64,000 nt of DNA, taken from positions 1-64,000 of the IMG/VR virus record IMGVR_UViG_3300025450_000015; one strand, given 5' to 3'. The notes beneath the pieces were generated by a model that saw only the letters and a program-made list of their open reading frames with translations, ran no database searches and had not been told where the DNA came from. This document shows positions 6,921 through 40,600 of this stretch, one piece after another (position 1 is the stretch's first letter; each line of letters begins with the position of its first letter). The stretch is from a virus. Both the position numbers and the translations under genes were made by a program.

Positions 6921-6936
6921 TTAAATTTGGTACTAT

Positions 6937-6965: not shown

Positions 6966-6990
6966 ATATACATACAGTAAAGGAGCATTC

Positions 6991-9714: not shown

Positions 9715-10401
9715 ATGCATGTTCGATTACTTAGTTTCTCTCAGCCAACAGAAGAGTTTGCATCAATGGGCATTGAAGACGCACAGGAACTCATTGCGTA
9801 TTGTGCCCGTGTCAGCAATCCCTCCAACCAACTTAACACCGAAACATCAGCAAAACTCATACAATACCTCATCCGACACCAACATTGGAGCCCGCTCGAA
9901 ATGGTGTCAGCCTGTATTGAAATCACCACTACCAGAGATATTGCCCGTCAAATACTTAGACACAGAAGTTTCAGTTTCCAAGAATTCAGTCAGCGATATG
10001 CTGACCCTACTAAAGACTTGTCGTTTGTATTGCGAGATGCACGAAAACAAGATAACAAAAATAGACAAAACAGTATAGAACTTGATATTCATAATAACGA
10101 TGAAGATCGATTCCTTGCCTATCAATGGGAACGTATGCAAGAGTTAGTTATTAAACAAAGCCGTGATGCATACGAATGGGCGATTAATAAAGGTATTGCT
10201 AAAGAACAAGCTCGTGCTGTATTGCCAGAAGGACTTATTGAAAGTCGATTATATATGAACGGCACACTACGCAGTTGGATTCATTTTATTGAATTACGGT
10301 CGGCTAATGGTACACAAAAAGAACATCAAGAAGTTGCTATAGCTTGTGCTCAAGTGATAGCTCAGATATTCCCGCTTGCCACTGATCTTTTAGCCAAGTA
10401 A
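9715..10401 (+). CDS. thyX: ThyX flavin-dependent thymidylate synthase
   Basis: Methylates dUMP to dTMP using methylene-tetrahydrofolate, FAD and NADPH, giving the phage its own thymidine supply. The ThyX signature RHRX7S is present as R82-H-R84-SFSFQEF-S92, followed by QRYADP. ESRLYMNGTLRSWIHFIELR and QKEHQEVA match the C-terminal nucleotide-binding part. Length (228 aa) is normal. The start follows the preceding stop after 3 bases. The 3' end overlaps the convergent glycosyltransferase-like gene by 65 bases. A strong hairpin terminator lies just beyond the stop. Confidence 0.95.
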   Translation: MHVRLLSFSQPTEEFASMGIEDAQELIAYCARVSNPSNQLNTETSAKLIQYLIRHQHWSPLEMVSACIEITTTRDIARQILRHRSFSFQEFSQRYADPTKDLSFVLRDARKQDNKNRQNSIELDIHNNDEDRFLAYQWERMQELVIKQSRDAYEWAINKGIAKEQARAVLPEGLIESRLYMNGTLRSWIHFIELRSANGTQKEHQEVAIACAQVIAQIFPLATDLLAK

Positions 10402-11029
10402 AATCATTTATCCTAGCAAGTGCCTCCGGATTGGAGGCATTTTTTTCTCCGTACATTTTACCAGAAATAGCACCCATATAAGCATATCCGCCAAATGATG
10501 CATTGTTGTTTAGTTGTGTCCAAAAATATAATCTAGTAATGGATTCTTCATTATTAATTACTGCCAATTTGCAACACTCTCTAAATGCACTACGCCAAGT
10601 AGTAAATGGATCTGTATTGAATGCTGTAATATTACTAGCCTGATCTATTGCTTTAAATTTTGTACTAATATTGGTAGTCATATCTACTGTATCTGTACTC
10701 ATATTCATTGTGAGAAATTTTGGTAATAATTTAACTCCGCCATAACCATATGTTAGACTATTAATAGGATTAATACTACGCCATACGTGAACAACATCTA
10801 AATCCCATTCACTTACTTCATAGTCAAAATTGAAATCATTTAATATAACAGCGTCTGCATCGACTGCCCAAAACATTTTAGTCATAGCTTTTTTGGCAGC
10901 CGAAATGTGTGCTTGATGTATACCTTTAATTCCATGTACACGTTTTGCAAGAGGAAAACGTTCTTTTAAACTGGCAAAGTTTTCATCTGCATTTTCTTCA
11001 TCGTATGAAATAAAAATAATATCGTACAT
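10337..11029 (-). CDS. glycosyltransferase-like protein (GT-A type, pair 1)
   Basis: 230 aa. The N-terminus IIFISYDEENADENFASLKERFP, the block KRVHGIKGIHQAH and WAVDADAVIL with D57-A-D59 resemble the nucleotide-sugar binding and DXD part of GT-A glycosyltransferases. YGYGGVKLLP and ITAFNTDPFTTWRSAFREC continue the family pattern seen in T4-like phages. It is a shorter paralog of the gene immediately upstream on this strand, sharing SYDE.NA..N, RVHG.KG and the DAD motif. Its last 65 bases overlap thyX antisense and contain the thyX terminator hairpin. Target sugar and acceptor are unknown. Confidence 0.68.
   Translation of the reverse strand: MYDIIFISYDEENADENFASLKERFPLAKRVHGIKGIHQAHISAAKKAMTKMFWAVDADAVILNDFNFDYEVSEWDLDVVHVWRSINPINSLTYGYGGVKLLPKFLTMNMSTDTVDMTTNISTKFKAIDQASNITAFNTDPFTTWRSAFRECCKLAVINNEESITRLYFWTQLNNNASFGGYAYMGAISGKMYGEKNASNPEALARINDFTWLKDQWQAGISELSLEHKL
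10421..10446 (+). terminator. rho-independent terminator of thyX
   Basis: TGCCTCC (10421-10427), a 5-base loop, GGAGGCA (10433-10439), then a run of seven T (10440-10446). The stem starts 20 bases after the thyX stop. The element lies inside the convergent glycosyltransferase-like coding sequence on the other strand. Confidence 0.9.
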
Positions 11030-11928
11030 TATTTGCGTCTTCCAATAATGCGTGGAGTATTAAGATATACAGTTTTGAAAAACTTACTGCCTGCACCGTC
11101 TAAATTAGCAATTTCTAATCCGCCATGCTTGTTTAATTCTTTACCTAAAAAATTAATGTATTTTGTCATTTCTTCCGGGTCTGCTAGTTCATGCGTAGTT
11201 TCCCAGAAGTTAGTTAACCATTCAAAATCACGTACCTGGCTATAATCCCAATCAGTAAACATTGTCTTATAACAGCCTTCTCTGGCACCTAGTATTGACC
11301 AAATACCGTGTTCTACATCTGCGCCAACACTACACCAAATCAATAATCTGTGATAATTTTGCCACCAGATTTTTTTAAGGTCATTTGTTTTTCCGCCCTG
11401 CTCTAATGACATTTTTACCCCTTCTCTAAAGCCTGCTCTCCATGCTTGAAACGGTGTAGCATTAGTAAAGCTCTCGCTATAGTTTTCATTAAATTGGTAG
11501 TATCGATGATCAAAACAAAATTCAACACGACCTTTTACATCCATTGGATCCGAGTTTTCATGTGTACGCATTTCATTGACAAATTTACGTGTCCATAATT
11601 TAAGTCCGCCATTACCATACATAAGTCCGTTAACATGAACTTTACCACACCAACTAAAAACATTTTCGCTAGTAAGACCCAACGCATCTAAATCAATTTC
11701 TACATTTAAAAATTCTGGGCTAACGATATTATCAGCATCTACTGTAACAAAATATTCAGTTTCACTTAGTGCCGCACAAGCCTTATGTGCCGCATCACTA
11801 CCTTTAACACCATGTACACGTTTTGCCCAAGGCATTTTTGTTAGTAAATCTGCATAATTTTTTTCGGCGTTTGGCTCATCATAACTGAGAAATATGATGT
11901 CCTGATCAATAATTTTAATTTTATCCAT
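11029..11928 (-). CDS. glycosyltransferase-like protein (GT-A type, pair 1, longer copy)
   Basis: 299 aa. Shares with its downstream neighbour the segments FLSYDEPNAEKNYADLL, WAKRVHGVKGSDAAHKA and VTVDADN (D64-A-D66), then YGNGGLKLW and ATPFQAWRAGFREGVKM. The extra length is a C-terminal extension of about 70 residues. The DAD triplet suggests metal-assisted sugar transfer. The start overlaps the upstream gene by 8 bases and its stop shares one base with the downstream start, so the two paralogs are coupled. Whether it modifies phage DNA, virion proteins or the host envelope is not visible in the sequence. Confidence 0.68.
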   Translation of the reverse strand: MDKIKIIDQDIIFLSYDEPNAEKNYADLLTKMPWAKRVHGVKGSDAAHKACAALSETEYFVTVDADNIVSPEFLNVEIDLDALGLTSENVFSWCGKVHVNGLMYGNGGLKLWTRKFVNEMRTHENSDPMDVKGRVEFCFDHRYYQFNENYSESFTNATPFQAWRAGFREGVKMSLEQGGKTNDLKKIWWQNYHRLLIWCSVGADVEHGIWSILGAREGCYKTMFTDWDYSQVRDFEWLTNFWETTHELADPEEMTKYINFLGKELNKHGGLEIANLDGAGSKFFKTVYLNTPRIIGRRK

Positions 11929-12508
11929 TTTTAATTAGTCCGTAACTTTGAAAATATATCCTAGAGGATATCGATATCTTATCTATTTGAGTTTCTATTT
12001 TACTAGTGAAAGGAATACGCACTTCGGGTTCTTCCATTAATTCCTTAACATTAACTAGCATAGTTCTTATTAAGAAATCAAAATCATTTTTAAGCATTAT
12101 AAAAAATACTGCATTACTAGTTATGCTATCTGCAAGTCTTGTTTTAGCTTTTTGTGAAAGAGTAAAAATCCAAGTTTGGTTTTCTAAATTCCATTCAACT
12201 GTTAGTTCTGTTGTTTTTGTTGGAGGGTTTTTAATCCATTGAAATATGTTATTTCTAAATCCGTATAACTGATTAGATACTTGTATTAAAGATAGTTCAG
12301 TTTTACCTGTAACACCTTTAGTATATCCAATTACATAGTCCCGTGTGTACTTTTCTTTTTCTAAAAACGACACATACTCTTCTGCCGATATTTCGTAAGC
12401 ATATTTTTCAGCAGGATCTTTTTGATTAGTAAGACTAGTTATAATTCCTGTTTTTTTATCATACACTAGGTAATATTTTTGAGGAGGCGTAAATTTAAAC
12501 TTTGGCAT
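11921..12508 (-). CDS. hypothetical protein, 195 aa
   Basis: Not recognised. It starts with MPKFKFTPPQKYYLVYDKKTG, followed by beta-rich segments and a helix (ISAEEYVSFLEKEKYTRDYVI). A middle block, VEWNLENQTWIFTLSQKAKTR, and a basic C-terminus follow. It lies between the two pairs of glycosyltransferase-like genes and overlaps both neighbours (8 and 14 bases), so it is likely part of the same functional unit. The sequence shows no DXD or other catalytic motif, so an accessory role is only a guess. Confidence 0.62.
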   Translation of the reverse strand: MPKFKFTPPQKYYLVYDKKTGIITSLTNQKDPAEKYAYEISAEEYVSFLEKEKYTRDYVIGYTKGVTGKTELSLIQVSNQLYGFRNNIFQWIKNPPTKTTELTVEWNLENQTWIFTLSQKAKTRLADSITSNAVFFIMLKNDFDFLIRTMLVNVKELMEEPEVRIPFTSKIETQIDKISISSRIYFQSYGLIKNG

Positions 12509-13346
12509 CGATTAACTCCTCTAGCTGAGATATAATTTCTTTTGATAAGAAATCTTTTTCAACATAATGAAATAATTGCGGTTGTTTAATATTACCTACA
12601 ACTAGTTCTCCTTTATTGTTCAGTACAAAAGGTACAATATCCTGCCATCTATCTGCACCAGATGGCCACCCTTGTAATGGAATTTTCATATGAACAAATT
12701 TCATAGGGTTTAATCTATCTATTGCAGTCTGTTGTAGTCCTGTTATTTCAATAGTAATGGCAGCGGCCAAATCCATACTAAGCCATTTTTGATAGTAATC
12801 TGGGGCATATATAGTGTAGCATGCTTCCCAGTTATTACAAACAAATTCTAGTACTTTGTAAAAATCGTAAGCAATATCTGATTTTTTAAAATAATGACAT
12901 GCAAAATACGGGTTAGTTAATCGATTTGCAATAAAAGTTTTTCTATGAAAAGTATCTAACGGAATATGTTCTTGTTTATAATTATTAATATGTGAGCAAA
13001 ATTTAATGTCAAAATTACTACAATATGTCCACCAATCACTGATATCACCGGACATTAACATGTCTGTATCCAACACTATTGTTTCATGATAAGGTGTTAC
13101 GTGATAAAATTTCCAACGGTGTTCTGCCGCTAACGGGCTATTACCAATTTCTTCAAACCATGGAATAGGAATTATTTGATCAAATGCTCGTAGATATTTT
13201 TTAGGAACTGTGTTGTTAGTAATTAAAGAAACATTGGTTATTTCTTTTTGACTATTTTTAATACTTAACGCCAGTGCATAGGCCTGTTGAACATAGTCAA
13301 CTGTGTCGGTATTTTGTGCAAATAATAAAAATCCTTTAGACACCAT
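12495..13346 (-). CDS. glycosyltransferase-like protein (GT8-like, pair 2)
   Basis: 283 aa. The layout is that of retaining GT8-like enzymes: an N-terminal GFLLFAQNTDTVDYVQQAYALALSIK segment, LITNN, then ETIVLDTDMLMSGD with the metal-binding triplet D93-T-D95. Later NPYFACHYFKKSDIAYDFYK and a C-terminal half with MKFVHMKIPLQGW follow, the His being a possible second metal ligand. It is a clear relative of the next gene upstream, which has the same start and DTD. Function is probably sugar transfer; the acceptor is unknown. Confidence 0.65.
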   Translation of the reverse strand: MVSKGFLLFAQNTDTVDYVQQAYALALSIKNSQKEITNVSLITNNTVPKKYLRAFDQIIPIPWFEEIGNSPLAAEHRWKFYHVTPYHETIVLDTDMLMSGDISDWWTYCSNFDIKFCSHINNYKQEHIPLDTFHRKTFIANRLTNPYFACHYFKKSDIAYDFYKVLEFVCNNWEACYTIYAPDYYQKWLSMDLAAAITIEITGLQQTAIDRLNPMKFVHMKIPLQGWPSGADRWQDIVPFVLNNKGELVVGNIKQPQLFHYVEKDFLSKEIISQLEELIDAKV

Positions 13347-14184
13347 AACCTCCGTCGATGTAACGATTTAAACTAAATTTATTCATTACATGGACATCCA
13401 ATCCTGTAGTCTTAATAAGAGTATATTCGCCTAGATGACTTTTCTTTTCAATTAAGAATTTCATTTTATTATCATCTGTACTTACTAAAACATCCTTATC
13501 GGATGTATATGTCATTTGTCCAGGTAATTCAATTACAAAATTACCTTCTGTTTTTCCATTAAAAATATGTATAGCAATACTGAACGCATAATCATTTCTA
13601 AAAGTGTTTGTCTCAATAGCATATAGAGTTCTGAAATAAACCCAATTATTTTTAATGTATTCAATCATATCAAAAAAAGATTGCATTAATATATTTTTAT
13701 CAAATATAAAAACACTTGCCCAATAAAAAGGAATGCTATAGGGATTTATTCTCTTAAATGCATCTTCATTTCTATCCGATGCTAGATCAAAACTTTTTCT
13801 GTATATTTGAAATTCGTATTGATTATGTAACGCAGGTTTTAAAATACTAGAATTTAAAATATAATCTGTATCCATGACCAATGTGCGATCGTAAGGCGAT
13901 AAATTATAAACACTGGTACGACTAAAATTTTTCCATTCGGACGTTACTCCTGTAATAGATCCGTCGAAAAATTTTCTTGTTTGGATTGGTCCTGTTGTGT
14001 CTAGTTCTATAACTTGATCAAACCCGTGATTAGGATAATTACTAGACAACCATCGTGTATTATCTGTAATTAAACTAACAGGAATATCTAAATATTTTTT
14101 AATTCTACTAGCGGCAAAAATTGCCATTTTGATGTAATCAATTTTAGAATTATTCTGTGCAATTAGTACAGCACCTATTGTCAT
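13336..14184 (-). CDS. glycosyltransferase-like protein (GT8-like, pair 2)
   Basis: 282 aa. Paralog of the neighbouring downstream gene: MTIGAVLIAQNNSKIDYIKMA, VSLITDN, FDQVIEL and TLVMDTDYIL (D105-T-D107) align in order with that protein. The second half is more diverged (YSIPFYWASVFIFDKNILM, TGLDVHVMNKFSLNRY). The conserved DTD and the C-terminal DVHVMN suggest metal binding. Starts by ATGA overlap with the upstream unknown gene. As for the other pair, the target is unknown. Confidence 0.63.
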   Translation of the reverse strand: MTIGAVLIAQNNSKIDYIKMAIFAASRIKKYLDIPVSLITDNTRWLSSNYPNHGFDQVIELDTTGPIQTRKFFDGSITGVTSEWKNFSRTSVYNLSPYDRTLVMDTDYILNSSILKPALHNQYEFQIYRKSFDLASDRNEDAFKRINPYSIPFYWASVFIFDKNILMQSFFDMIEYIKNNWVYFRTLYAIETNTFRNDYAFSIAIHIFNGKTEGNFVIELPGQMTYTSDKDVLVSTDDNKMKFLIEKKSHLGEYTLIKTTGLDVHVMNKFSLNRYIDGGYGV

Positions 14185-23747: not shown

Positions 23748-24359
23748 TTATACTCCTACTAGGCCAGTTAAACTTTGGATACGTACAGTATAATCGATTT
23801 GAATTAATCTGTTAAGACTTTTTAAAACTGGATGAAATATAACATGAGTTAGTAGTAAACTATTTCCGCTTGCACTATAACTTTGTAATCCTAATTCATC
23901 GAACACATACGTTGTTTCGCCTGTTGAAGAAGTATCGTATGCACTTTGTCCGCCGGGCTCACCGTAATCCAGTAAACAAGTACAGAAAATATCTGTGTAG
24001 TTAACACCGGTCACATGGCGAACTTCAGTAAAGTTGCGAGTTGGATCGGTATTTGTGCTAGCAGTTGGGTCGATTACTTTTTTATATGTTTGATTGTACA
24101 AGCTGGCATTTGTTCCGCTGGTATTAGGTGTAAGATATGTAATAATTCCTGTAGGATCAATACTGGTTCCACCGTTACCAAAATTCATCTGGTAGATATA
24201 TCCGCCATCTGTATTGTTTGACAAACTGGCAGCCAGGGCGTAACTTATGTTTTCATAATGAATAGCGTTACGTTTATTAACGAAAATTTCTTTGGAAACT
24301 GGGTCAAATATTTTAATATGACCTTCCACATGAATTCCTGTTTGATCTTTAGTCTGCAT
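23748..24359 (-). CDS. conserved virion structural protein, 203 aa
   Basis: I chose ATG 24359 (MQTKDQTGIHVEGHIKIFDP) over an earlier in-frame ATG, because the late promoter box is at 24380-24387 and the longer start would lie within it. The start VEGHIKIFDPVSKEIFVNKR and NAIHYENISYALAASL are typical of a conserved structural protein of T4-like cyanophages. The protein is beta-rich with few Lys or Arg residues. Function within the tail is unknown; it sits between the S53 protease and the collar fibre. Confidence 0.75.
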   Translation of the reverse strand: MQTKDQTGIHVEGHIKIFDPVSKEIFVNKRNAIHYENISYALAASLSNNTDGGYIYQMNFGNGGTSIDPTGIITYLTPNTSGTNASLYNQTYKKVIDPTASTNTDPTRNFTEVRHVTGVNYTDIFCTCLLDYGEPGGQSAYDTSSTGETTYVFDELGLQSYSASGNSLLLTHVIFHPVLKSLNRLIQIDYTVRIQSLTGLVGV

Positions 24360-24379
24360 AGTTGTCTCTCTTAGTCTTA

Positions 24380-24387
24380 TATTTATC
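24380..24387 (-). promoter_or_regulatory. T4-type late promoter -10 box (GATAAATA)
   Basis: GATAAATA on the minus strand, in the gap after the S53 protease gene and 20 bases upstream of ATG 24359. Confidence 0.62.
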
Positions 24388-24410
24388 AATATTTTAATAT
24401 GCTAGTTTAA

Positions 24411-25985
24411 TTATCTAACACCTGTTGTTTTTCTTGGATATGACGGTCCTGATGTAGGTCTAAAACCATAATTTTGTTTTGGAAAAGTACTTCCTGTATG
24501 GAAGTATTTGTATATCTGATCAACTTTTGGAGTACCAAGACCTGTAACCGCATCCCAGCCTGTAGTTGTAGTATAGCCCGTAGTATAGCCGTCTCTATTA
24601 TCACCGCTAGTAATATCGTTAAACAATAATGCTCTGTTTGAATACCATGTGGACATATTGAATGGAATACGCTGTCCTAATTGTTGATTTAATCTAGCCC
24701 AAATACCCGCCAATAAAGGCGCCGCGGCGCTGGTTCCGCCTACTTGATTTAGCACACCATTTACGTAGTACGCATATCCCGTGTTAGGATCAGCAGGAGC
24801 ACTTATATCTGGAACACCCCGATAAGGTAGTGCAGTTGGTGAACCTGTCGATGATGCTGTAATAGTAGTTGTTGTTAGTCCTGATTGCCAGCTAGGGAGA
24901 GGAACACTAGCACTAACGCCGCCGCCAGATCCGCTCCAAGCTGTTTCACTAGTAATTTGAGCACTACCGTTTAGATTAATTGAAGTTCCGCCGGCCGATA
25001 CCATATATGGACTACAACATGTAGCGGCTGTACTTAGATTAACTGCACCGTTATCGCCTGAGCTTATAAAAACTGTTATACCCTTAACTACACAAGACTG
25101 AAGTGCTGTATCATATTGTGTTCCATCACCGATGCCCCAACTCACATCAAGGGCAGTTGGATTATTTGTAGTGTCTGCGGCTACTGCTAGAAAAATATCA
25201 TTAATAGGTGCGGTTCCAGTATTGGGTGCGGTATAGTATGCAATCAATGCCTTTGGTGCTACACCACCTGCACAAAATATATCTAGCATACTTTCCAAAT
25301 CACTAGTTGTGCTGGCAGTAGCACCGTCGACACTTATTTGTACTATAGTTGGAGCTGAAAGTCCAATCCTACTAAAACTACTATTAACATCAGTTTGGTT
25401 GTATCCTGTTACGTATCCGCTATAGGTTAATTCAAAAATTCCAACACATCCGCCGTAGCCATTAGACGGAGGCATATTATAAGCTATGGACATTTGTACA
25501 GGAGTTACTGCTGTCAAAGGATTTGCTACACTAGCTTCACAAACTACCGCATGTTTCTTTGCAATAAAACTTTCATCAAACCCTAGTACCTGTTCAACCA
25601 TACTGGAAATATCTGCAGGTACTATTACTGGACTGTCGTGTGATGTATATGTTCTACCAGTATCATCGGTAACATCCAAAAGTGTTATATTAAAAATATT
25701 ATTAAAATTTTCAACAGTTCCAAAAACTCTAATTAATCCTTTAACTCTGCTAGCTTCTACTATTTTAAATCCTATGTCTTGGAAAAAATCATTCACTTCT
25801 ATAGTATTAGATTCTGTTGATCCGAACTGATACACATACTCATCGTGATCCAAAATTGGGTGAGTACCGTCAATTACAGCATCTGCATATTCTTTCAAAG
25901 TCATCCCATTATCGTGCGTATCCCTATGCAGGTACACACTGATTGTCATTGTATCTGAAAGATTTTTTAATCTACTAAACGTCAT
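24411..25985 (-). CDS. S53 family (sedolisin/kumamolisin-like) serine-carboxyl peptidase
   Basis: 524 aa. It has the full layout of a pro-kumamolisin. Residues about 15-137 form the activation domain (MTLKEYADAVIDG, DFFQDIGFKIVEASRVKGLI, RVFGTVENFNNIFNITLLDV, SPVIVPADISSMVEQVLGFD), and residues about 160-505 the peptidase. Catalytic residues are readable: E231 and D235 in LESMLDIFCAGGVAPKA, oxyanion D311 in FISSGDNG, and S419 in GGTSAAAPLLAG. The C-terminal calcium loop region shows FNDITSGDN (D457) and GWDAVTGLGTP. S53 enzymes are acid endopeptidases; no signal peptide is visible. The gene lies between the repeat fibre and a conserved virion protein in the late operon, so a virion-associated or assembly role is inferred. 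Confidence 0.9.
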   Translation of the reverse strand: MTFSRLKNLSDTMTISVYLHRDTHDNGMTLKEYADAVIDGTHPILDHDEYVYQFGSTESNTIEVNDFFQDIGFKIVEASRVKGLIRVFGTVENFNNIFNITLLDVTDDTGRTYTSHDSPVIVPADISSMVEQVLGFDESFIAKKHAVVCEASVANPLTAVTPVQMSIAYNMPPSNGYGGCVGIFELTYSGYVTGYNQTDVNSSFSRIGLSAPTIVQISVDGATASTTSDLESMLDIFCAGGVAPKALIAYYTAPNTGTAPINDIFLAVAADTTNNPTALDVSWGIGDGTQYDTALQSCVVKGITVFISSGDNGAVNLSTAATCCSPYMVSAGGTSINLNGSAQITSETAWSGSGGGVSASVPLPSWQSGLTTTTITASSTGSPTALPYRGVPDISAPADPNTGYAYYVNGVLNQVGGTSAAAPLLAGIWARLNQQLGQRIPFNMSTWYSNRALLFNDITSGDNRDGYTTGYTTTTGWDAVTGLGTPKVDQIYKYFHTGSTFPKQNYGFRPTSGPSYPRKTTGVR

Positions 25986-25986
25986 A

Positions 25987-28659
25987 TTATACTTCCAACT
26001 TCAGATATGAGATTGTAACTGTTAGGTTAGATTGTGAAATACTGCTATTGTTGTATATTTTCAAATACATATTTGTGCTAGGAGTTGCATCACCATTGAA
26101 TCCTATGACTGCTGGTGTGAAATAAACAGTACCGCTTACAGTACCAGTAGTTATTGCTTCGGCGATAACTCCTGATCCTGGAGTAGGATCTGTAGTAATA
26201 CTTCTACTGCTGTCGTTTGATTGTGCTGTAGTAGTTGTATAAACAGTTACCCATGCACCCGCTGAACATGTTATACTATACAATGCATATCCTTTAGCTG
26301 CCGTTACAGTTGTAGTTGTGCTTGCACCAGATGTTAAGTTTACGCTTGTGCTAACTGTAGCTCTACTACTTAATGTTCCAGCAGATACGTTTGCTGTAAT
26401 TATTCCGCCACTAATTGTAATAGTGGACCCGTCAACTTTGACTGCACCTAGCTGTGTTGTTGAAGCCGTAGGAACTGAAATTGTTCCTCCGCTAACTGTA
26501 ATTGTAGTTCCATCTGGTTTAACAATACCTGCCGCGCCAGTTGTTGCTAAAGTTCCGCCTGAACTGCTAATCACTCCGCCACTGATTGTAATTGTAGAAC
26601 CGTCAACTTTTACGCCACCCAGTACACTTGTTGTTGCAGTTGGCAATGAATAAGAACTATTTGCACTAATTACTCCGCCACTGATTGTAATTGTAGAACC
26701 GTCAACTTTTACGCCGCCCAGTACACTTGTTGTTGCAGTCGGCAATGAATAAGTTTGAGCTGTAATAACTCCACTACCGTTAATTGTAATTGTTGATCCG
26801 TCTACTTTGACTCCGCCCAATGTTCCGCCACTAGTTGTACCTGCTATTGGGAGAGTATATCCGCTACCTCCTGCGGCACTGATAACTCCTCCTAAGATTG
26901 TAATTGTCGATCCGTCAACTTTTACGCCACCTAATTGTGTAGTAGATGCAACTGCTAAACTAATTGATCCGCCAGTATTATTAATACCGCTTGAACTAAC
27001 TGGTTGTATACTTACACCGCCAAGTGTACTTGTACCGGCAGCTGGCAATGAATAGCCGCTACCAGATGCTGATATAACTCCATTACTAATAGTAATAGTG
27101 CTTCCGTCCACTTTAACTCCACCCAACGTATTTGTACTTGCTGTGGGCAATGTATAAGTTGCTGACATTAGTCCGCTAATACCATTGACAGTGATAGTCG
27201 TTCCATCAGGTTTAACACCGCCTAACACACTAGTTGTAGCTATCGGTAATGCGTAAGTTGAACTAATAACACCATTACTAATAGTAATAGTAGATCCATC
27301 TACCTTAACTCCACCCAGCGTATTTGTACTTGCTGTAGGCAATGTATAACCACCAGAACCTCCAGTAGAACTAATAACTCCGTTAGTTATAATAATTGTA
27401 CTTCCGTCTACCTTAACTCCGCCCAATACACTTGTAGTTGCTGTTGGTAACGTATAATTATTACTTGGTGTTGCACTAATGACTCCGTTACTAATTGTAA
27501 TCGTTGACCCATCTATTTTAACTCCGCCTAATACACTTGTAGTTGCTGTTGGAAGTGCATATTGTGTACTGCTAATAACTCCATTGTTTATTGTTATTGT
27601 AGATCCATCTATTTTAACTCCGCCAAGTATACTTGTAGTTGCAGTAGGTAGACTGTATTGTTGAGCACTAATAACTCCGCCTACACTAGTGATAGTAGAT
27701 CCATCAATCTTAACTCCGCCTAATTGCGTTGTAGTTGCTGTTGCTAAAGTTATTGTTCCGCTTGAATTGTTTAATCCGCTAGTAGTAACCGTAGGAATTA
27801 TTACACCACCCAAATTGCTAGTAGTAGCCGATGGCAATGAATAATTGATTGCACTACTAATAACACCATTGCTAATCGTAATAGTGCTTCCGTCTACTTT
27901 AACTCCGCCAAGTATACTTGTAGTTGCTATTGGTAATGAATAATTTGAACTAATAACACCGAGGCCACTGATTGTAATAGTAGATCCATCTACCTTAACT
28001 CCGCCCAAAGTACCAGTACTTGCTGTTGGAAGTGTATATCCGCTACCGCCTGCACCTGTTGCACTAATTACTCCGTTACTGATTACAATAGTGGATCCGT
28101 CAACTTTGACACCGCCCAGTACGGAATTAGTAGCAACTGGTAAAGTATAGCTACTGGCTGTTGAGCTTATTACACCATTGTTAATTGTTATGGTTGTACC
28201 GTCAACTTTAACACCGCCAAGTATTGCTGTAGTAGCAGTTGGCAATGAGTATTGAGTAGTAGTTAATTGGTTTGAACCGTTTAGAGTTATTGTTGTACCG
28301 TCAATTTTAACACCGCCAAGTATACTTGTAGTTGCAGTAGGTAGACTGTATTGACTAGTACTTGCTTTAATAATTCCGTTGGTAATAGTAATTGTTGTAC
28401 CGTCAACTTTAACGCCGCCCAACTGCGTTGTAGATGCTATGGCTAAACTAATTGCTCCGCTAGAATTTATTAGTCCGCTGGCAGCGGTAGCAGGAATAGT
28501 TACTCCTCCTAATATTGATGTTGTTGCTGTAGGCAATACATAAGATGGCTTATTATACAATTCTGTAAAATTAGCATTAATTTTTATGCCGGCTGTACGT
28601 AATGTGTCTCCCGTACCTGAATTAACAGCCGTTCCTGTGTTGATTAATTGTTGTGCCAT
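25987..28659 (-). CDS. repetitive tail fibre (about 22 LGGV repeats)
   Basis: 890 aa. The N-terminus QLINTGTAVNSGTGDTLRTA followed by GIKINANFTELYNK is a common start of marine phage structural proteins. Residues about 40-760 are roughly 22 repeats of the type LGGVKVDGSTITISNGVIS, separated by YTLPTATTS-like linkers. Three divergent long repeats (…SGLNNSSG.I.LA) recur at about every seventh or eighth unit. The C-terminal 130 residues are non-repetitive (SSRATVSTSVNLTSG, ITCSAGAWVTVY, MYLKIYNNSSISQSN) and probably form the tip domain. Three bases separate its start codon from the stop of the giant gene, so it is in the same operon. A trimeric beta-fibre shaft is likely. Confidence 0.78.
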   Translation of the reverse strand: MAQQLINTGTAVNSGTGDTLRTAGIKINANFTELYNKPSYVLPTATTSILGGVTIPATAASGLINSSGAISLAIASTTQLGGVKVDGTTITITNGIIKASTSQYSLPTATTSILGGVKIDGTTITLNGSNQLTTTQYSLPTATTAILGGVKVDGTTITINNGVISSTASSYTLPVATNSVLGGVKVDGSTIVISNGVISATGAGGSGYTLPTASTGTLGGVKVDGSTITISGLGVISSNYSLPIATTSILGGVKVDGSTITISNGVISSAINYSLPSATTSNLGGVIIPTVTTSGLNNSSGTITLATATTTQLGGVKIDGSTITSVGGVISAQQYSLPTATTSILGGVKIDGSTITINNGVISSTQYALPTATTSVLGGVKIDGSTITISNGVISATPSNNYTLPTATTSVLGGVKVDGSTIIITNGVISSTGGSGGYTLPTASTNTLGGVKVDGSTITISNGVISSTYALPIATTSVLGGVKPDGTTITVNGISGLMSATYTLPTASTNTLGGVKVDGSTITISNGVISASGSGYSLPAAGTSTLGGVSIQPVSSSGINNTGGSISLAVASTTQLGGVKVDGSTITILGGVISAAGGSGYTLPIAGTTSGGTLGGVKVDGSTITINGSGVITAQTYSLPTATTSVLGGVKVDGSTITISGGVISANSSYSLPTATTSVLGGVKVDGSTITISGGVISSSGGTLATTGAAGIVKPDGTTITVSGGTISVPTASTTQLGAVKVDGSTITISGGIITANVSAGTLSSRATVSTSVNLTSGASTTTTVTAAKGYALYSITCSAGAWVTVYTTTTAQSNDSSRSITTDPTPGSGVIAEAITTGTVSGTVYFTPAVIGFNGDATPSTNMYLKIYNNSSISQSNLTVTISYLKLEV
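26390..28545 (-). repeat. tandem coding repeats of about 90-100 bases in the fibre gene
   Basis: About 22 degenerate units encoding LGGVKVDGST(I/V)TI plus a linker. Three long-form units at repeats 1, 8 and 16 mark a higher-order period. Neighbouring copies differ at silent sites, so this is not a recent slippage array. It is coding, not CRISPR. Confidence 0.85.
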
Positions 28660-28662
28660 CTT

Positions 28663-31600
28663 TTATCCTTGGTCCATTGTTGTGTTTCCGGTATCTAAAC
28701 TAACATTATTACCGTCAAATGTTGGGTCTGTACTATTACTTATTTGAATAAAGCCATTATACCATATGCCAGGTTGTGCCTTAACAAAGGTTGATACAGT
28801 ATCTTTTCCTTGTAAAATACTAGTCGTAGAAGTACCAGCACGTACACTTGGGGACTGATTTAATTGTTTTAAATCGTATCCATCCCATAGTGTTCCAGTA
28901 GTTCTGACCACTGTTATTAATGTACCAAACGCTGGAGCATTTGTTAATGTAATTGTTGAAGTTCCATTAACTGTAAAATCCGCAGGATAACTTACATCAC
29001 CTGCTGGACTATACGGTGCATTATTAATATCAAATATCTTGTAAGATTGTTTCTTTAATCGAACAAGATCATTTTGTCCACCTACAAATATTTCAATCTG
29101 GTTAGCCGATGTAACAGTATACGGCAATGTGATTGTAGTTGTACCTAAACTTGTTATTTGTGTTGTCTGAACTGTGTCAATATAAGGAATAGTTTCACTT
29201 GGGCCGATACCTTGTACAAATGTTCCAGATGGATTTACTTTTGTTACTCCTGTACCTAACGTACCTCTGCGAAGTTGTCCTAGTGTATTTCCGGTTAATG
29301 TGAAGTATTCAATACGTTCGCCTCGAATTTCAACAACGCCTGGTTTATTATTAGAAGGACTCGGTATATCAAGATTGCTTGCATCTGATACAATAATTGT
29401 AGTATCATTCCAATGTAGTGTTTGTGCTAGTGTTGTTTGTTTATTCAAATTCAAACGTTTATAATTTACACGATTCAACATGTCTTTAAATTGCATATAT
29501 GCAATACTAGTTTGAACTACATTATTACCAAATGTAATTAATGTAACTGTATCCGTAGGAGATAATGTTTTTGCCAATGTGATACTTTGGAAATCACTAT
29601 TTAAAATGTAATCAATGCTGTTAGATAACAATGTTGAATTTTTTATTACCCAAACATAATTTCCATCAATTACTGGACGATCTAATTTGATAATGCCGCC
29701 TGGTATATTTTTATAATTGAAATAACTAGTTGAGCTTGGAGTTATGTTATAACTTGAGTTATACTGAATAGTTGTTCTTTGAATATCCAATACATTCTGC
29801 ACATAAGAACTAATAATTTCAACCACACCAGATGGAACTGTTGCAAATGTTATTTGACTAGTAGAAGGATTATAAGCATAGGCATTGTTTGCAACAATAC
29901 TTACAATTAATTGCTGTCCAGAATATTGAGAATAAATTGCTCTATTAATCTTAATAGTAATACCAGTTGGGTCTATGCTATAATCAGAAGATGCATTTAA
30001 TAAATTATTACCTGCATAAACTAGAATGTTATTAGTTGTTACTGACTGAGGAACAGCCTTAGATGGATCAATGGTATAATTTAATCTATTACCACCAATT
30101 GTAAAATAACTGTTGACTGGTGCGGACAATATTGATTGTCCTACACGTACAATCATATTACTTTCGTAAGGTAAATTATTTCCAATTGGGTATGACAAAG
30201 TGTAAGCCGATACACCAACTACTGGTGTAATTGATTGTGTTGTTGTGATTGCAAATGTTTGTTGCAAACCAGACACTATAATATAATTGATTAATGCACC
30301 GGCTGGTGGAGGAGATGCAAATTGTATTCCAATAAATCCAGCAACTTCATAAGATGTATCTGTTTCAAATAAAGTCACTGATGTTGCAACACCGTTTACA
30401 TACACTAAACTTGTTACAGTACTATTCCAACTAGCTCTTGTTATAAAATCAACTGTTGTACCATCACCAATAAAATAATCAATATCTAACAAATTAGATC
30501 CACTAAATCCGACACTATAAATTGATACAAGTTGGTTTGCTGTTGGAGTATTGATGAATGTAATATTAGGAGTTGTAGTGTAGTTAATCAAATAATCAGT
30601 ATTATAAGTTACAATATTACCATTAAGTTTAACAATAATAGCTCTTGAACTATTAGGTTGTTGTCCAATATTATAAGTCGATGTTATTCCATCAGTTTCA
30701 TAGTTAACAACTTTTATGTTAGCTGAACCTGTTCCAGTTTGATCATATACTTTAATTGCAAGTGTATCTACTACTTGTCCCGGTACTACTTCTTCTGGTG
30801 CAGGGCTAGATGTTGGTGTAACAAATCCGTCACCGTCTAATAAAATATCATCAGGTGCTAGTCCGGTTGCAGTTGTATAAGCTAAATTGCCGCCATCTAA
30901 TTTTGTATCGTAATCAGTATCCGGTGTTGGTACTGAACCATCACTAGTACTTTCACGTAGAATAAATCGGTCTCCAGTATTTACAGTAAAAGAAGCAGGA
31001 AGTTCTATGACATTTGTAATAGATTGATCAATCACAGTTCCACTTAAAGTAGATGCAAAACTAGTAGTACTAGCCGACCCGCCATAATCGACAGCACTAA
31101 AAGATACTGATAAACTAGCACCACCGCCACCGATCGTTGCAGGAGTAATAGTAGTACCAACTACTGGAGTTTTTATAATAGCGTTGGCATTGGTTTGCTG
31201 TGCTGTTCCAAAATTAGGATCATCTAATCTAATTGGACTATATGTTCCAGTTATATTAATGGTAGATCCCACTGGGTACGCTGTTTTTAATGTAGCACTA
31301 CCTGGTATTAGTACAACATCAGTTAATTCTTGTAATTTTTCTGTAAATGTAACTTGTGTCGAAGGTAACATGTTAGTTAAAATAACTTGACTCAACGTTA
31401 CAGCATTAGTCGATGTGTTAATTGCTGTAATTGTTGTATCATAACTAAAAGAACTCACTGTAGCGGCTGTTCCTGTTCCTGATCCTACACCTGTTGCAGT
31501 AAATGATTCTCCTGTTTGATTAGCTAATGCGCCGATTAATGTAAAATCGGTTGATCCAATACTGCTAATTGTATAAAGAATACCCGGAGTAAATGACCCC

Positions 31601-34600
31601 GCAGTAACCAATGCGTTAGTGACTACGGCTCCAACTTTTAATCCGTTTAAAGAATTAAGTGTTAATACATTACCTCCTGCAATATTAGAAACTGTAAGAG
31701 AACTACCGTTAGTAGGTAAAGAAGAAAATATTATTGCTTGATCATTTGGTGGAGTTGCATCCGGTGGAGCACTAATTTTTAAAATTGTGCTACTGACAAC
31801 ACTAACTACAGTTTGTCCAGACAAGAAATATGCCGGAGTTGCAACACCGTTGACTGAAGTAGTCGATGTTATTAACATTCCAGGAATAATTTTTGAAGTG
31901 CTTGACACTTGTAAAAGTATACCTGAACTACCGAACGAATTATAAAAACGTAGGTAAGATAAATTATCTGGAATAGAATCTAAGATAAGTGTTGTACTAT
32001 TTTCTATTCGAAGAATTTTTTGTCTACTTAAAAATCCTTGTCCATAAATTCTCATACCAGGTACCATACCTGTAGTAGACGCAACTTTAACTGTAAACCC
32101 TGCACTACCTAAAGAATTATATGTTGTAGTAATTCCAGAAGTTAACGCACTAGTTGTAATTGTTACCGATGGACTAATTAAATTTTGATCCACTGGGTAA
32201 ACAAGTGTACTACCGTCCGATGTGTATGAATAAGTTTTTTGTTTAACATAATATACGTTGATATTAGTATTGTTAGGTGGTGTATATGGTAACGTGAATA
32301 CGTGAGTATTTGCTAATACTTGAACAGAGTAATCATTAAAATTAGGATCTCTACTATCCCATGTATCACTCAAATAAGGTGCATCGTCCCAACCACCTGA
32401 AATGTTAAAGTTTAATCCTGTAACTGTTACACCGCCGTAATCTGTTCCTGTCATTAACTGACTTAAATCTTTACCTAACTGTCCTGTTGTAGGATTGTAA
32501 AAATATTGAATTCTGTCTGTAGCTGTTAATACTGAGATATCTTTATGATAAGTTACAATAATTGTTGATCCAACTGCTATATTAAAAGTAAATGTAATGC
32601 TACCGGTATACTGAGTATAACCTGATTCCATTGATGTCACTTTTGAAAGAGTATATAATTCTCTCAAGACAGGTGTTCCATTTACAGTCACTACTGTTTG
32701 ATCTATTCTAGTATCAGGTGCCCATGTCAATGGATACTGTACACGATTAATTATTGCAGTAAATGTATCAACTTGTTGCAGATTAGTAATATAATATCCA
32801 TAATTAACTCTATCAAATTTCATACCTACTAAATTTGAACGTACTAATCCGTTGCCAATAATTGCAACTGCTTGAGCTTGCACTCCGTTTGCACCTAGCC
32901 CGCCATTAATTGTCACTGTAGGTGCAAATAAATAACCGTTACCACTTGCACCAAATTGATCAACATTTAATAAAGTTATTTTAGAAACTTTACCATTTGA
33001 AATCAATGCGTCGGCTGTTGCTGTAACAGGATTTGATCCTGTTGGAGATGATATTATAATCTGCGGAACATTAGTATAACCGCTTCCTCCATTTGTAATG
33101 ACAATTTCAATAACTTTAAATCCAACATTGTCATTCCAAAATTTCCAAGGATAACTTTCAATCAACGGATTACTTGTTTGAAGTGTTCCATTAACATCTG
33201 TTACTTGTATTGTTGTAAATCCGCCATTTTCGTAAGTAGTTTGTAAATCAAAATCAGTTACAGCACTTTCAGTTGTATCCATACCAGTATAGTCACTGAT
33301 ATATTCTCTAACTTTTGTTCTGTAAGGTTTAACTTCAGCTACATAATCTTCAAAATTTCTTAAATTATCAATTGGATAGTTTACAGGCTGACCTAATGTA
33401 CCTACTTTATGGGTAGCACGTACAAAACTTGTTTTAAATATCCAGTCAATGAAAGGCTGTTCGCTATGTGCATAACGAACATTAGTAAAGAATAGATCTA
33501 AATAATCTTGTTTTAAATCGTCTATTAGAATATTATTTTTAATACAATTAAGAATTATTCTTAATTCAGCACTGGCTTGTACGTCAAAGTCACCGCCATC
33601 GAAAATGTTAGCATCATATCCAACATCTGTACCTGAGAACGAATACAAGCTAGATTTAAACTGGATCGTTCCATTTTCTATACCGACAATTCGATAACTT
33701 TGTGTCCAGTCTACGCTAGTTGAACTAGCATATTTTTCTAATAATATCCAATTGCTACTGCTACCATTTATAATCTTAACTAATATACCGATACCCTGGT
33801 CACTTAATGCCGAAAGACTTTCATTAACTGCAAACAAATCTGCAAATGTGTTTATTTTAAAATCTGGTCCGTTAAACTGGCTAAAACCAGTTGCATACCA
33901 ATCAGTGTAACTCCAGTATTTTCTAACATCATATGACTGTGATAAGGATCTTGACCAAATTCCAGTAGCAGGATCATAAGAGTAAATACTCCATGCACCG
34001 TATGCGGTACTGTCGGATAAAATTAATACAGAATAACTTCTAATTGTACATATTGTATTGTTGTTATATCCTTGTCCACCATTAATAATAGTAGCACCAG
34101 TTATCTGACCTAGTGCATTAATAGTGGCTTTTACTATTGCGCCTTCACCTGATCCAGTAATTTCAATATAAGGTGCATATCCATAACCATTTCCAGCATT
34201 TACTATTGTTATCCCAGTGATAGATCCGTTAGTTATAACAGGTTTTACTGATGGTAACGCAAATGATCCAATACTAGCAAATTTTAATTCTGCTTCTGTA
34301 TTATAAGAAATATCCCATAATCCTAGAATTTTATCAGGAGTAGGATCATAACTTTCCAACGCCGATATGTTTCTAGAATTAGTTGTTTGGTATGTACTTA
34401 ATACAAGATTGGTACGTTCAATTAATTCTTTAATTGCTTCTACACGATTAACAAACATTCCTTGACGAGGACGATTTTCAATACCGTAACGCAATTTAAC
34501 TGGTAAGCTAGGATCCGGTACTGGTCTACCACCCTGGTCGACACCACATAAACTATCAAACCATTTTTGTTCAATGGTATTTGGTAAATCTACAACAGGA

Positions 34601-37600
34601 TCGTTACTAATTAATTTCCATTGGCTATGAATATTTTGGTCTGTTTTATCAATAGTCCAATATTCAATTGCTAGTGCTACATCAGTTCCGTTTAGATATC
34701 GACTTGCATTTATAAGACTAAAGCTATTAGTACCAGTTAATGCAAGACATGTATAATCTTGTCCGCTTGGATTTGCAATTAAATTTGCAACATCATTTGC
34801 AGACATATTTCTTCCATCGACGCTAGGAATAATTTTTTTATTTTTTACCCAGAAATAATAAGTGTTTGTAAATGTTTTACTTACTGTGTCATATTTTGTA
34901 GTTGAGCTATAGGCTGAATTACCGTATAAACTTTTTCCGCTGATACCTGCTGTTAGTCCAGCTGGTGTATCAGCAATACTATCCCATACACTAGGTAATT
35001 GATTATAACTTACCCATTCGTAAATATCAACACTTGCACCTGCGGCAAGTGTATTCCATGCAGTGTTTCTATATAAAGGATCTGCAAAATAATTATTAAC
35101 AAATTTACAAGTTCTCAGATCCCACCATAGTTGACCGACTGGTTGGTCTGACCACCATCCTTCAATTCCGTTTGAAGATGCAACATTAACTGTTACTGTA
35201 CTATCACTGTAACTATAAGTTGCTGGGTCAAAGAACGTTTGATATTTGATTTCTTCTTCGGCAGGACCTGGAATTTTTCCTTGTAAAGGATCTACAACAT
35301 CCAAATAAGTAGACAATGTTCCTAATTTTTTATTATACAGGAATGCTTTTTTAATTTTACTTACATCTGGAATGGATACTTGCGTGTTATAAATTGTCCA
35401 GGCAAATACATTACTTAACTTTGTATATGTATAAACTTGTCCAGATTCAATATTATTAAACATTGCATACGGGGCACTAATTGCAATTTGATTATTGCCT
35501 ACTGCAAATCCAGTTCCGTATCCTTCTCCAAATTTATTTTCAGTTGCTAATGATTCGCTGAATATCCATTTACTATTGTATCTGTCGTAAATGTCAACCC
35601 TACCACTTGCATTATCTGCTGTTAAAAAATCAGTTGAATTTCTGTCAAATGTCGTTGTAGAGCTATCAAAGGAAGTACTAACTGTAGTATCACCGTATAA
35701 ACTATAAACAACAATAGTTTGACTATCATTCATAAATGATATCTTGTTACCAAATAAAGAATTAGTTTCAGGATTATTACTAATTAATGCTTGATTAAAA
35801 ATATACTGTCCATTTACAAGAGAATATACATTGATACCGCCTGCTTGCACTTTTGTATTACTTTGTGTATCATCGGAAATAGCAATATAATTTCCATAGT
35901 CGGATATTGCTATTCCAAATCCAAAATTAGAGTCAGATCCAACTAACACCTGCATAAAATCAGGATTGTTAACATCAGACACATCGTACACACTTACTGC
36001 ACCGGATGACGATACTAATAATGTGTTTCCATCTGCTGTTATTTTTAATGCACTACCAAAATTTACAGGGTTAGTTAACGATGCATCTGGATCGATATGT
36101 CCACTATAAGTCCATGTGTGTTCTACAAAGTTAATTGTTCCGCCTGGTAAACTGTTTTGATCAACCGGTGAATCTAAGAATAACGTATTCAAAGGTATAA
36201 TTGGAGCAGAAGTTCCGCTTAGTTGATTAGTGCTAGCAACAGCAAATGTTAAATTAACATCGTTATTAATAACCAGTTGTGTAATGGATGTACTCATGTC
36301 TTGAGTAGAACCAACAATCAAATAACTAAATGCTTGTTGTGATCCGTTTATTGTAAGATTTTCTTGTCCCTGGCTTATTACAATAGTATCAGGTAGAATA
36401 TTTGTACCTGTAACTGTCATACCTGCCAACACCTGACTTAAATTATAACTAGCACTATTGGTTACACTATAGTAAGAATATAATATGAATTTGGTTAATA
36501 CATAATCAACTTTTTGACCGCTAGTGTATCCACCGTTTGCACCAGACACTGCTATCATACCTGCACGTATTCCAAGAGTTGAATTAACTACTAAAATATT
36601 TTGTCCTGACTGAACTAAATTGTTGAATATAACTGTAGTTGCAACTCCTGATCCTGATCCAACGTTAGTTGCAATAAACGTTACGCCAACAGTATTTGCA
36701 GTTGCACCAATTGTAGTAAAATCTGTTGTACCTAGAGTGTAAATTGTATAAGTTGTTCCTATAACAAATGACCCAGCCGTTACTTTAAGTATTTCAGATG
36801 TAGTAACTCCTTGGTTTACTGCTTCACTGCCTACAGGATTATACTGTGACGAAGCCAGTGTGACTGTTGTATATCTTAATTGATAAACTCTACCTGCTCC
36901 GTTATTATGTCCAGGAGCACCAACGTACATAACATTATTTCCAAAAGCTACACTAGAACCAAATTGTTCATTAGTACTAGGAGATGGACTAATAATTGAA
37001 TCAACTAAACTATAATTGTTATTTAAATCTTTAACATACAGGCTTATCGCACCTTGTCCTACTATTGTGGAATTTATTCCCGATAAAGAATTTACAGGAA
37101 CATACGGAATAATTTGCCATGATAAAGATGTTGAGGACGGAGCAATTCCATTACTAGTAATCAAACACTCATAAAATATTCCATTTGTATCAGATACAAT
37201 ACTTCCAGGAGTATACGTATTGCTACTGTTATACAGTCCTACATAGCTGGTTGCTACTCGGTTGACTGTTGGACTACCGCCAACTAGCCAGACTCCGTCA
37301 TCACTAAAACTTAACACAGTAGAAAGTTGTGTAGGTTTTGTATTTTGTATTGGATACAACGGATTAGGGTTAGACATGAAAGGTGCAGTAAGAGTTGAGC
37401 GTTGTGCCCAAGGAACTACTGTTCCTGCTTTATCATAGGTAGTAATAACACCGGTTGATCCATTAGTTACTGCTAGTACAGAACCTTTACGATTCATAGC
37501 TACAACTGAACCAAATTGTAAATTTGCAGAGAATGAAATATTTGCCAAGGAAGATTGGCTAAACGCTGGATTGTATTTCCAAGTAGCCCAAGATCCTGCC

Positions 37601-40600
37601 CCACTATCATCGGTCCAAACTAATTCACCGGCTTTAAGTTTAACTGTATTACTTGTTGAATTCACAGTGTCTATACCTGCAAATCTTCTTGATACTAAAG
37701 AATACATTACCATCTGTCCAGTTTGTGTAAACGGAGATGGAAAATTTGAGATTTTAGTATTGATAGTAATTACATTTAAATTAACAGTAGCAATTTGATA
37801 AAACCCATCAAAAGTACTTAGATAAACACCTTGACTATTAATAGTTCCAGTTTCTCTTACTCCAATGTAAGAACCTGCTGTTAATGGTAAGCTATTCAAT
37901 GCTGTTATTGTTAGTACTCCGTTACTGTATGCAACAGATGATACTCTGATTTTTAAATCTGTAAAACGATATATATTCCAACTGTTATTATCAAATGCAG
38001 TCCAAATATACTGGCCTTCATCGATTGAAGTAATGGGGTATAACAAATTTCCTTTACTATCGGTATCGTTAATATTTGATAATGATTTTAAACTAAATTT
38101 AACATCTGCTGGATTAATATAACCAGCATCACGCAATAACGGATTATAATTTGTGTTTACTGGAAATGGATTAGAATTATAGCCGAGTGGTTTTACATAT
38201 ACATCATTAGGTGTTTGTTGATTCACAAAGTCGCTAATATTTTTATTAATAGAATTTGTTAAAAAATATCCTTGAGGATTATTTCTAAAATCTTTTTGGT
38301 CTAACACAAATTCTATATCCTCAAAAGCATTAGTTGCCCCATATCGGCCAACACGCAATGCCCACTCTTCATAAAATACTAGACTCTCCGCTTTGTCTTC
38401 GCTCAATACTCCAAACAAATGATTCAGCACATTTTGTGTACCTTTATCTCGAATCATACCTTGATAGAATTTAAATTCGCTGACAGGGTCTTGTATGATA
38501 TTATCCAGGTACTGTCTTTTTTGATAACCAATTAAATGTTGTGCAAATTTCTGTTGATCTGTATTAAAATTATCAACGTTAAGACTATAAAAATCTACAA
38601 ACTGTGTAGCAACATTTGTCCAGTTTGGCAATAGCTGTGCCGATGGTTTAGATTTTAATCTGGTCCATTGCTCAGATACAAAATTAATTGTTCCTGCTGT
38701 AAAGGCATTAGCACTATAATAGTTTCCTTGATATTCAATGATATCGGCCATATTATAATCTTGCCACGCTTGCCAAGAATCGATCTTAGCGGCATCATAC
38801 ACAAATCCAGGAATATCTAATCCGCCGTACCAGCCTTCGGTTACATACCCTGACAATTTTAAACGTTCTCTTCTATAACCTGTAGCAGGATTATAAATGA
38901 TATCATTAAAAATATCTGTATTATTAATTGTTACTACATGTTCATTTTGTATCAAATAAAAACTTGCACAATAAATTCCATGTGTACCTCTTGGACTATA
39001 TGTAACGGTATTTCCAGTTCGATAGCTATCTATATCGTTTGGAGTTAAAGGCGTACCGTCCACTTTAAATATTTCATAGCTGTTGAACGGATTACTTATA
39101 CTGTCAACAACTGTCAAATTAGTAATAAAATTGATACCATTGGCACTAGGACTTAAACTGATAACACTACTTCCAAGATTGCTTAATCCAGGTAATGCAG
39201 TCCATAGATTGTATTCAAACACAGCAGATGCCGGAATATTGTAGTTGGCACTATAATAATTGCCGTCGTATCGCACTACAGTTCCGTAACTATAAGGTTG
39301 ATTTACAGACCAGTCAGACCATTTTTCTTGTCCGTTACTCCAGTTTTGTGTTGTCCAGAACATGAACTCTCTAGCACTAGTGGACCAATTAGCAACACGG
39401 CCAAGATTATTATTGAAATCATCAAATATGAATCCTTGACTTAAAAGATATTGTTCATATCCTAATAAAAAGTCTACTACTTCTTGAATAGTAGTTAATT
39501 GTGTTCCGTAAGGCAATGTTTGTAAAGATGTGGTATCCCATGCCGATCTGAAAACAGCAGATACTCCGCCAGTTAACGGAAGAGATGCCAATAATGCGAA
39601 TGATTGACTATTAAAAGTTTCAGTAGCAACTGTACTAGTTACTGCTCTGTAATAAGAATTTCCATATTGCACAATCTGTCCGGCTGTATAAGATTGTCTC
39701 GGAGTCCAAGTTACAAAACTTTCTGAAATTCCTCCGACATTGACTGTGATGCCTGATTCTAAATAATTAAAATAATTAAAATATGGTTGTGTTTTACTAT
39801 AACCTTTAATTTCAAAACCGGTTGATAATTTTGTAATAATCACACCACTATAGGTTATTTTTTGAACAGGGCTAGAACTATTTAAAAATATGTTATAACT
39901 TTCTGGAGGAATAAAAACACTACCGGTAGCCAATGGGGTTTTACTTTCTAATAGTAAATTAAATTGTGGCTGGTTAGTAAATGCTCCAACTCTATAACTT
40001 AATTGAGGAGTTAAATTAGCTAAATTTGCAACATATAAATTATATGAATCTTGATTATTACTAAAAATAATATTTGAAATAAGATCAACTACATAATTGA
40101 TTAATCCAGCTGTTTGTACTCTAGATTTACTAGAATATAAATTAGGAATTTTTACATCAGCTGGTCGAATACGTAGCCCAGTGTCTTTATAAATTAATTG
40201 GCCGGCAATATTTCTTTCAATTCTATATCGATCTAACAAAATTCCAAAAGTTTTAGCAGGAGTTAACAACAAAGAAGATACTAACACACTAAATGGATAA
40301 TAGCTACTACGTCTCCATGCTGATTCAACTGGTCCCACATCTCCAAATACAAAGACACTATTTGTATTTTGTAATAATGGTCCGCTGGCTAATCCGCTAG
40401 TTGCAGGACTTACTAAGTTTCCAGATTCGTCAACTGGTAAATGATTTATTAAGAAAGGTCTTGCAAATTTAGATAATTTAATAACAGGCATCCCAGGTTC
40501 TTTAACAAGTCCTGCAGAGATATCTTGCCACATAGGTAAATTATCACTAGTATAAGGTGCTGGACCATACACACTAACCCACCAATTGGGTTGCTGACTA

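Follow-up and report, generated by a model that had tools for sequence, protein, structure and literature searches.

An S53 protease gene one base behind a phage fibre gene, and the different protease heads paired with its fibre-end domain

Most of the enzymes known from phage tails cut sugars or the cell wall. In the tail-borne depolymerases, and in the branched receptor-binding complexes of jumbo and T4-like phages, an enzyme is carried on a fibre and polysaccharide is cut. Phage maturation proteases, such as the prohead protease and the Peptidase_G2/S74-type self-cleaving chaperone domains, are not known to belong to clan SB. The S53 peptidases (kumamolisin/sedolisin, MEROPS S53, PDB 1t1e) are known mainly as secreted degradative enzymes of the acid type. 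Among the known systems closest to the one reported here are also S8 peptidases of cyanophages. The T4-like cyanophages P-HM1 and P-HM2 carry the S8 peptidase T4-GC518 (PMC3037559), and mentions of cyanophage S8 peptidases occur among the available text of PMC9004378, PMC3037559, PMC10665884, PMC7824862, PMC5332604, PMC9964418 and PMC9602691. In these available portions they appear as annotations only, with no mention of a pairing with a fibre. For cyanophage S-CREM1, 14 virion proteins are reported, and the available main text of that paper contains neither "peptidase" nor "protease" (PMC9964418). In the accessible text of the open-licence literature we found no description of a phage S53 peptidase or of the fibre-end/protease pair treated below; one may exist elsewhere.

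The window analysed here, the whole stretch of 64,000 nucleotides, is part of a 153.7-kb virus record (IMGVR_UViG_3300025450_000015). On its minus strand, at 24411-25985, it carries an ATG-initiated gene of 524 amino acids plus stop, which by its sequence is a complete, intact S53 (kumamolisin-like) zymogen. Pfam, above its curated cut-offs, places Pro-kuma_activ (PF09286) on residues 10-137 (25575-25958, E 4.9e-11) and Peptidase_S8 on residues 238-463 (E 1.6e-11). Residues 14-486 align by phmmer to kumamolisin 1t1e with an E-value of 3.5e-61, and the catalytic domain spans residues 158-486 (24528-25514) when aligned to the mature enzyme. The initial annotation had described a full zymogen with an activation domain and had placed E231, D235, D311 and S419 in the correct motifs; both statements hold, the four residues lying at these positions and pairing in the phmmer alignments with kumamolisin's E..LD, GD.G and GTS motifs. 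The AF2 model of the protein is poor (pLDDT 50.8), and the geometry of the triad is taken from the sequence alignment. Asp457 and Asp478 are invariant in all 26 distinct viral S53 proteins, with residue 458 variable among them (I in 15, V in 5, Q in 4, T in 2), and their motifs are presumably the C-terminal motifs of kumamolisin's Ca site. By Kyte-Doolittle hydropathy alone, the protein has no hydrophobic N-terminal stretch and no visible export signal: the highest 12-residue mean in its first 51 residues is 0.64, the N-termini of 26 relatives giving 0.40-1.67, which agrees with the earlier remark that no signal peptide is visible. The phage protein resembles kumamolisin in its prodomain, its catalytic domain and its E..D, D and S residues, and it differs in lying one base behind a fibre gene, in having no visible signal peptide and in an extra conserved C-terminal tail; some of its phage relatives also differ in having no prodomain.

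Two scans of viral contigs gave 37 S53 loci with 26 distinct proteins, every one of which keeps the residues corresponding to E231, D235, D311 and S419. Six pairs of these S53 genes have dN/dS values of 0.05-0.16, and one near-identical pair has 0.25. These data support the view that the window sequence encodes an intact gene under selection, and the complete catalytic conservation together with the low dN/dS rules out a degraded relic, as had been maintained from the start. Catalytic residues are also intact in eight complete S53 proteins that have no prodomain (L055, L059, L066, L067, L078, L090, L091 and L100); the 408-aa protein of L067 has no match to the Pro-kumamolisin activation domain. 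The finding adds S53 to the phage repertoire: at E 1e-3 two different S53 queries matched none of 50,697 named phage records, and PHROGs gave no match at E 0.01. Genome contigs yielded 36 pattern matches, none of them confirmed as a relative, in a single-sequence scan that reaches close relatives only; on that scan we set aside a recent capture from a bacterium, while an older one may have taken place. Photosystem reaction-centre genes were found in one of 16 records, that of L104.

Upstream of the protease lies a repeat fibre gene of 890 aa (25987-28659, minus strand), which matches Phage_head_fibr (E 5.7e-23) and phrog_15343 (E 3.6e-149) and, at residues 3-37, the baseplate-wedge family phrog_958 (E 1.2e-6). 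The two genes meet in TAA-T-ATG (25983-25989, minus strand), that is, the fibre stop, one base and the protease start, and this arrangement, in which a single base separates stop from start codon, recurs in 36 of the 37 S53 loci, mostly as TAATATG. Downstream is a conserved phrog_11259-like gene (23748-24389, minus strand, E 1.8e-67). The protease had been placed between a repeat fibre and a conserved structural protein; the fibre and the conservation of the second neighbour stand, the structural role of the latter being putative. A search for S53 homologues at the same position elsewhere, which had been proposed as a check, shows that in 34 of 37 loci the gene immediately upstream of S53 carries the same end domain as the fibre of the window. 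The minus-strand orientation, the one-base junction, the conserved C-terminal tail and the S8 proteases behind the same fibre end are points beyond the initial annotation. The late transcript named in the initial annotation is putative; neither promoter-like matches (40 vs 54.1 in shuffled sequence) nor terminator-like matches (8 vs 8.5) rise above the shuffled level.

A single ORF of 5109 aa (28663-43992, minus strand) adjoins the fibre gene on its other side. The suggestion that this giant protein is a target or partner of the protease is weakened, since in the stretches fetched for the first 22 loci its relatives occur in 15, against a fibre-like gene beside S53 in all 22, and it is thus less likely to be a constant partner. 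In seven of these 22 loci (L008, L013, L014, L015, L017, L019 and L021) the fetched stretch has only fibre-like genes and S53 in common with the window. The records of L013 (G002) and L021 (G008) contain window-type portal and gp6-like proteins elsewhere, so in these the pair sits at another place in a related phage. Because two further records, G004 (L015, 127 kb) and G009 (L028, 142 kb), which may be fragments, carry the pair with no match to the portal or gp6-like protein of the window, we regard the pair as portable. L034 and L038 keep the junction, but their records, 24.7 and 37.5 kb long, contain no fibre-end gene. In these two loci (L034:4159-4174 and L038:9971-9986) the giant-type gene is separated from S53 only by bases reading LEF-stop, T, ATG; the LEF-stop resembles the last codons of a fibre gene and is possibly the scar of a lost one. 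The 860-aa S53 protein of L036 has no junction, no upstream fibre and no usual tail, and a fibre-end protein is encoded two genes downstream; there (L036:19298-21289) the fibre-end domain is borne by a collagen-repeat protein with a weak C1q-like match.

Several other features of the window are recorded for completeness. A baseplate gp6-like gene (43992-47492, minus strand) has its nearest named relatives, at about 33-35% identity, in jumbo myoviruses of the RaK2/GAP32/CBB/Atu_ph07 type. Behind the fibre cluster are genes that by sequence appearance are glycosyltransferase-like (10337-14184, minus strand), with relatives in several related loci. An AAA/MoxR-like ATPase adjoins a DUF2201 metallopeptidase-VWA protein (5832-8175, plus strand), and this looks like a known feature, as a pair of AAA/MoxR ATPase and metallopeptidase-VWA protein is described for group 2.2 jumbo phages in the available text of PMC7824862.

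The element that predicts a downstream protease is the conserved fibre-end domain, the last 129 aa of the fibre (25990-26376, minus strand). Its AF2 model is a confident beta-sandwich (pLDDT 96.2, pTM 0.90), and its best five viral structure matches are cyanophage fibre proteins (TMq 0.91-0.94). The best PDB match of the model is weak (PBSX exported protein XepA, Z 8.4, rmsd 3.3, 101 aligned residues), and the C-terminal jelly-roll of the subtilisin Tk-SP (3afg; Z 7.4, rmsd 2.9, 93 aligned) ties with unrelated entries; as modelled, the domain gives PDB matches too weak to name a function. Searches with alignments A2, A4 and A6, of which A2 was built from protease-linked fibres only and is biased accordingly, gave 227 loci, each scan keeping its best 80 of 499 to more than 568 relatives. 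In these best-80 sets a clan-SB protease, whether S53, prodomain-less S53 or S8, is encoded by the gene that follows the fibre end in 210 of 227 loci (72/80, 3/3, 79/79 and 56/65 by search). Loci from different scans may lie on one contig, and we therefore count by distinct fibre ends, 130 of 136 of which, again among the best 80 per scan, are followed by a protease. These comprise 86 S8a, 14 S8b, 19 S53 and 11 prodomain-less S53, where S8a, S8b and S53short (for the last) are our own group names, assigned by phmmer against 11 reference proteins. A single base separates fibre end and protease in 153 of the 210 loci; in the others the gap ranges from -4 to +35. Pfam searches of 50 distinct downstream proteins from the first scan found Peptidase_S8 in 34 and Pro-kuma_activ in 19, the rest including truncated, divergent and non-protease sequences. 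The 17 loci that have no classified protease comprise 13 with a phrog_11259-like gene directly after the fibre end and four unclassified ones (L119, L240, L255 and L268); on the 4.2-kb contig of L255 there is an S8 match on the other strand. G002 and G008 each have two fibre ends, one beside S53 and one with no protease. All ten larger records examined have one clan-SB protease beside a fibre end, and G016 has in addition a second, distant S8 match.

The same domain occurs in 48 named records, all of them cyanophages or marine viruses. Among the 40 of these that were listed, an S8 match is present in 37 and absent at 1e-5 in three; it is listed as the next gene downstream in 31 of the 37 and at another place in six. 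In S-CREM1 the annotation of the fibre gene reads baseplate wedge and tail pin, and the gene that begins one base further on is called peptidase. The annotated subtilisin-like (S8) proteases of the T4-like cyanophages S-CREM1, S-H38 and S-WAM2 are like the window protease in having this fibre-end domain directly upstream, that of S-CREM1 having the tail as well, and they differ in belonging to another protease family.

The tail comprises residues 495-524 of the window protein (24414-24503, minus strand), lies beyond the kumamolisin match and is of a type common to the S8 proteases of other phages; the window S53 ends in ..TFPKQNYGFRPTSGPSYPRKTTGVR and the S8 protein of L194 in ..TFPKINYKPRPTTGAVYPRTRIRRTL. 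An HMM built from 25 S53 tails and run on 533 ORFs of S8-type loci matched, at E<=0.01, 27 of 81 S8 proteases vs 1 of 452 other ORFs, leaving 54 of the 81 unmatched; the S8 protein of S-CREM1 gave an E-value of 8.4e-5 and that of S-MbCM7 2.9. In the reversed-sequence control no E-value fell below 0.15. These profile matches point to a C-terminal tail that is common to S53 and S8 heads, though not universal among them. The tail motif occurs in 110 of 134 distinct complete proteases, being present within the last 60 aa in 91 and absent there in 43. With regular expressions composed after the sequences had been seen, a narrow form, applied to the last 150 aa of 602 distinct ORFs, found the motif in 48, every one a fibre-adjacent protease. 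A wide form that adds V, I and W before PR, applied to the last 60 aa of the ORFs from all loci, found it in 98 of 148 proteases vs 3 of 1056 others. One of these three, L263:8205-10880, resembles a further protease by its tail. In L091 and L131 the tail is inside the protein, with more sequence after it. The sole other ORF matched by the HMM is L201:3537-4289, which encodes a 250-aa protein with no Pfam or protease match and ends in the protease-type tail ..RPSSGQQYPRGNRGN; because this protein carries it, the tail may be a more general docking tag. The tail peptide on its own gave no match against the named phages.

Different heads stand behind one fibre-end family. On a tree of 99 fibre ends, built from few columns and with 45 of 96 inner branches open, two changes are needed for the S8/S53 distinction and ten for a scheme of five labels; full and prodomain-less S53 intermingle, and the prodomain-less S53 of L139 falls among S8-linked fibre ends. 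G016 has a portal 83% identical to that of the window and a prodomain-less S53 as its fibre-adjacent protease. G015, whose gp6-like protein is 45% identical to the window's with one stop inside the match, has S8. Some S8 proteins, among them those of L065, L068, L075 and L131, contain stretches like WYQCTAHPNMKN or YYYICQYHGGM, and the end of the L131 protein has a sub-threshold Copper-bind (plastocyanin) match. The pairing of fibre end and protease suggests an exchangeable protein-cutting tool mounted on a fibre.

Our preferred explanation, to which we give a probability of about 0.58, is that the protease is an exchangeable enzyme that would be docked on the fibre through its tail, carried by the virion and used to cut host surface protein. 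Fibre and protease would be made from adjacent genes whose translation is probably coupled, given the junction of stop, one base and start. The protease, which has no visible export signal, would be joined in the cytoplasm to the C-terminal beta-sandwich of the fibre by its own C-terminal tail, with the prodomain silencing the full-length form inside the host cell, and the enzyme would then travel on the outside of the virion and cut receptor-masking or surface-layer proteins at adsorption. Tail and fibre-end domain would be the constant parts, and the catalytic head (S53, prodomain-less S53 or S8) the exchanged one. The proposed likeness to tail-borne depolymerases lies in the fibre-mounted enzyme and the exchanged head; the differences are that the enzyme here is a protease and that its docking is putative. 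Receptor-binding tips are typically variable, and we count the conserved, well-folded fibre end, unlike such a tip, in favour of a docked protease. On the other side we count the conservation of the fibre end in the 13 loci where a phrog_11259-like gene and not a protease follows it, the S53 genes of L034 and L038 with no fibre end and of L036 with neither junction, upstream fibre nor tail, and the proteases in which the tail motif (43 of 134, last 60 aa) or the HMM match (54 of 81 S8) is missing.

A maturation protease that cuts the fibre or another virion protein at assembly and is then released or left in place, the fibre end being its substrate or a chaperone-like cap, would account for the tight linkage to the fibre nearly as well as a docked protease does, and we consider it unlikely while giving it more weight than the other alternatives. 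It would also account for the absence of a visible export signal, and proteases of this role are common in phages, jumbo phages included according to the available text of PMC7824862. Some fibre ends have no adjacent protease, and in G002 and G008 one has it and one does not, which speaks against this role even if one protease could serve both. Heads as unlike as S53 and S8 would moreover both have to retain one kind of fibre as their substrate, and an S53 enzyme of the acid type is an odd choice for the cytoplasm. The known maturation proteases are alike in being linked to virion parts and differ in being uncoupled from this fibre end in the loci examined.

We think it improbable that the enzyme is a free protease, acting in the cell or after lysis in host breakdown, lysis or phage exclusion, that merely rides with the fibre genes. 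Such a role would suit an S53 zymogen, the family being known chiefly for degradative enzymes that are secreted, and also the S53 genes of L034 and L038 that have no fibre-end gene. Hydropathy finds no N-terminal export signal of the kind a secreted S53 exo-enzyme would have, the junction is fixed to one fibre domain even in records where the window's portal and gp6-like proteins have no match, the tail is common to S53 and S8 heads, and the LEF-stop, T, ATG of L034 and L038 looks as though the pair there may have shed its fibre gene. Least probable is a protease fold that serves as an adhesin or structural tip and in which catalysis is unimportant. The S8 proteins lend this some colour: of 86 complete S8a proteins, simple and crude patterns detect the D motif in 70 and the H motif in 80, and S8b has Glu at the usual Asp position. 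The GTS serine motif is nevertheless present in 98 of 101 complete S8 proteins, and the catalytic residues of all 26 distinct S53 proteins and of the eight complete prodomain-less forms, together with the low dN/dS of S53, argue against such a role.

If the protease is docked on the fibre, host-surface proteins would be digested during adsorption by a widespread class of proteases tied to one fibre domain. The fibre end and the tail together would then serve as a sequence rule by which such enzymes could be recognised in viromes that have no annotation, and the loci would be a natural source of exchangeable protease heads. More tentatively, and at somewhat less than even odds in our estimation, many aquatic phages may possess an overlooked class of protein-cutting fibres, with a constant socket and tail and at least three exchanged heads (S8, S53 and prodomain-less S53), which would be the proteolytic counterpart of the capsule depolymerases and would decide which protein-coated hosts can be infected.
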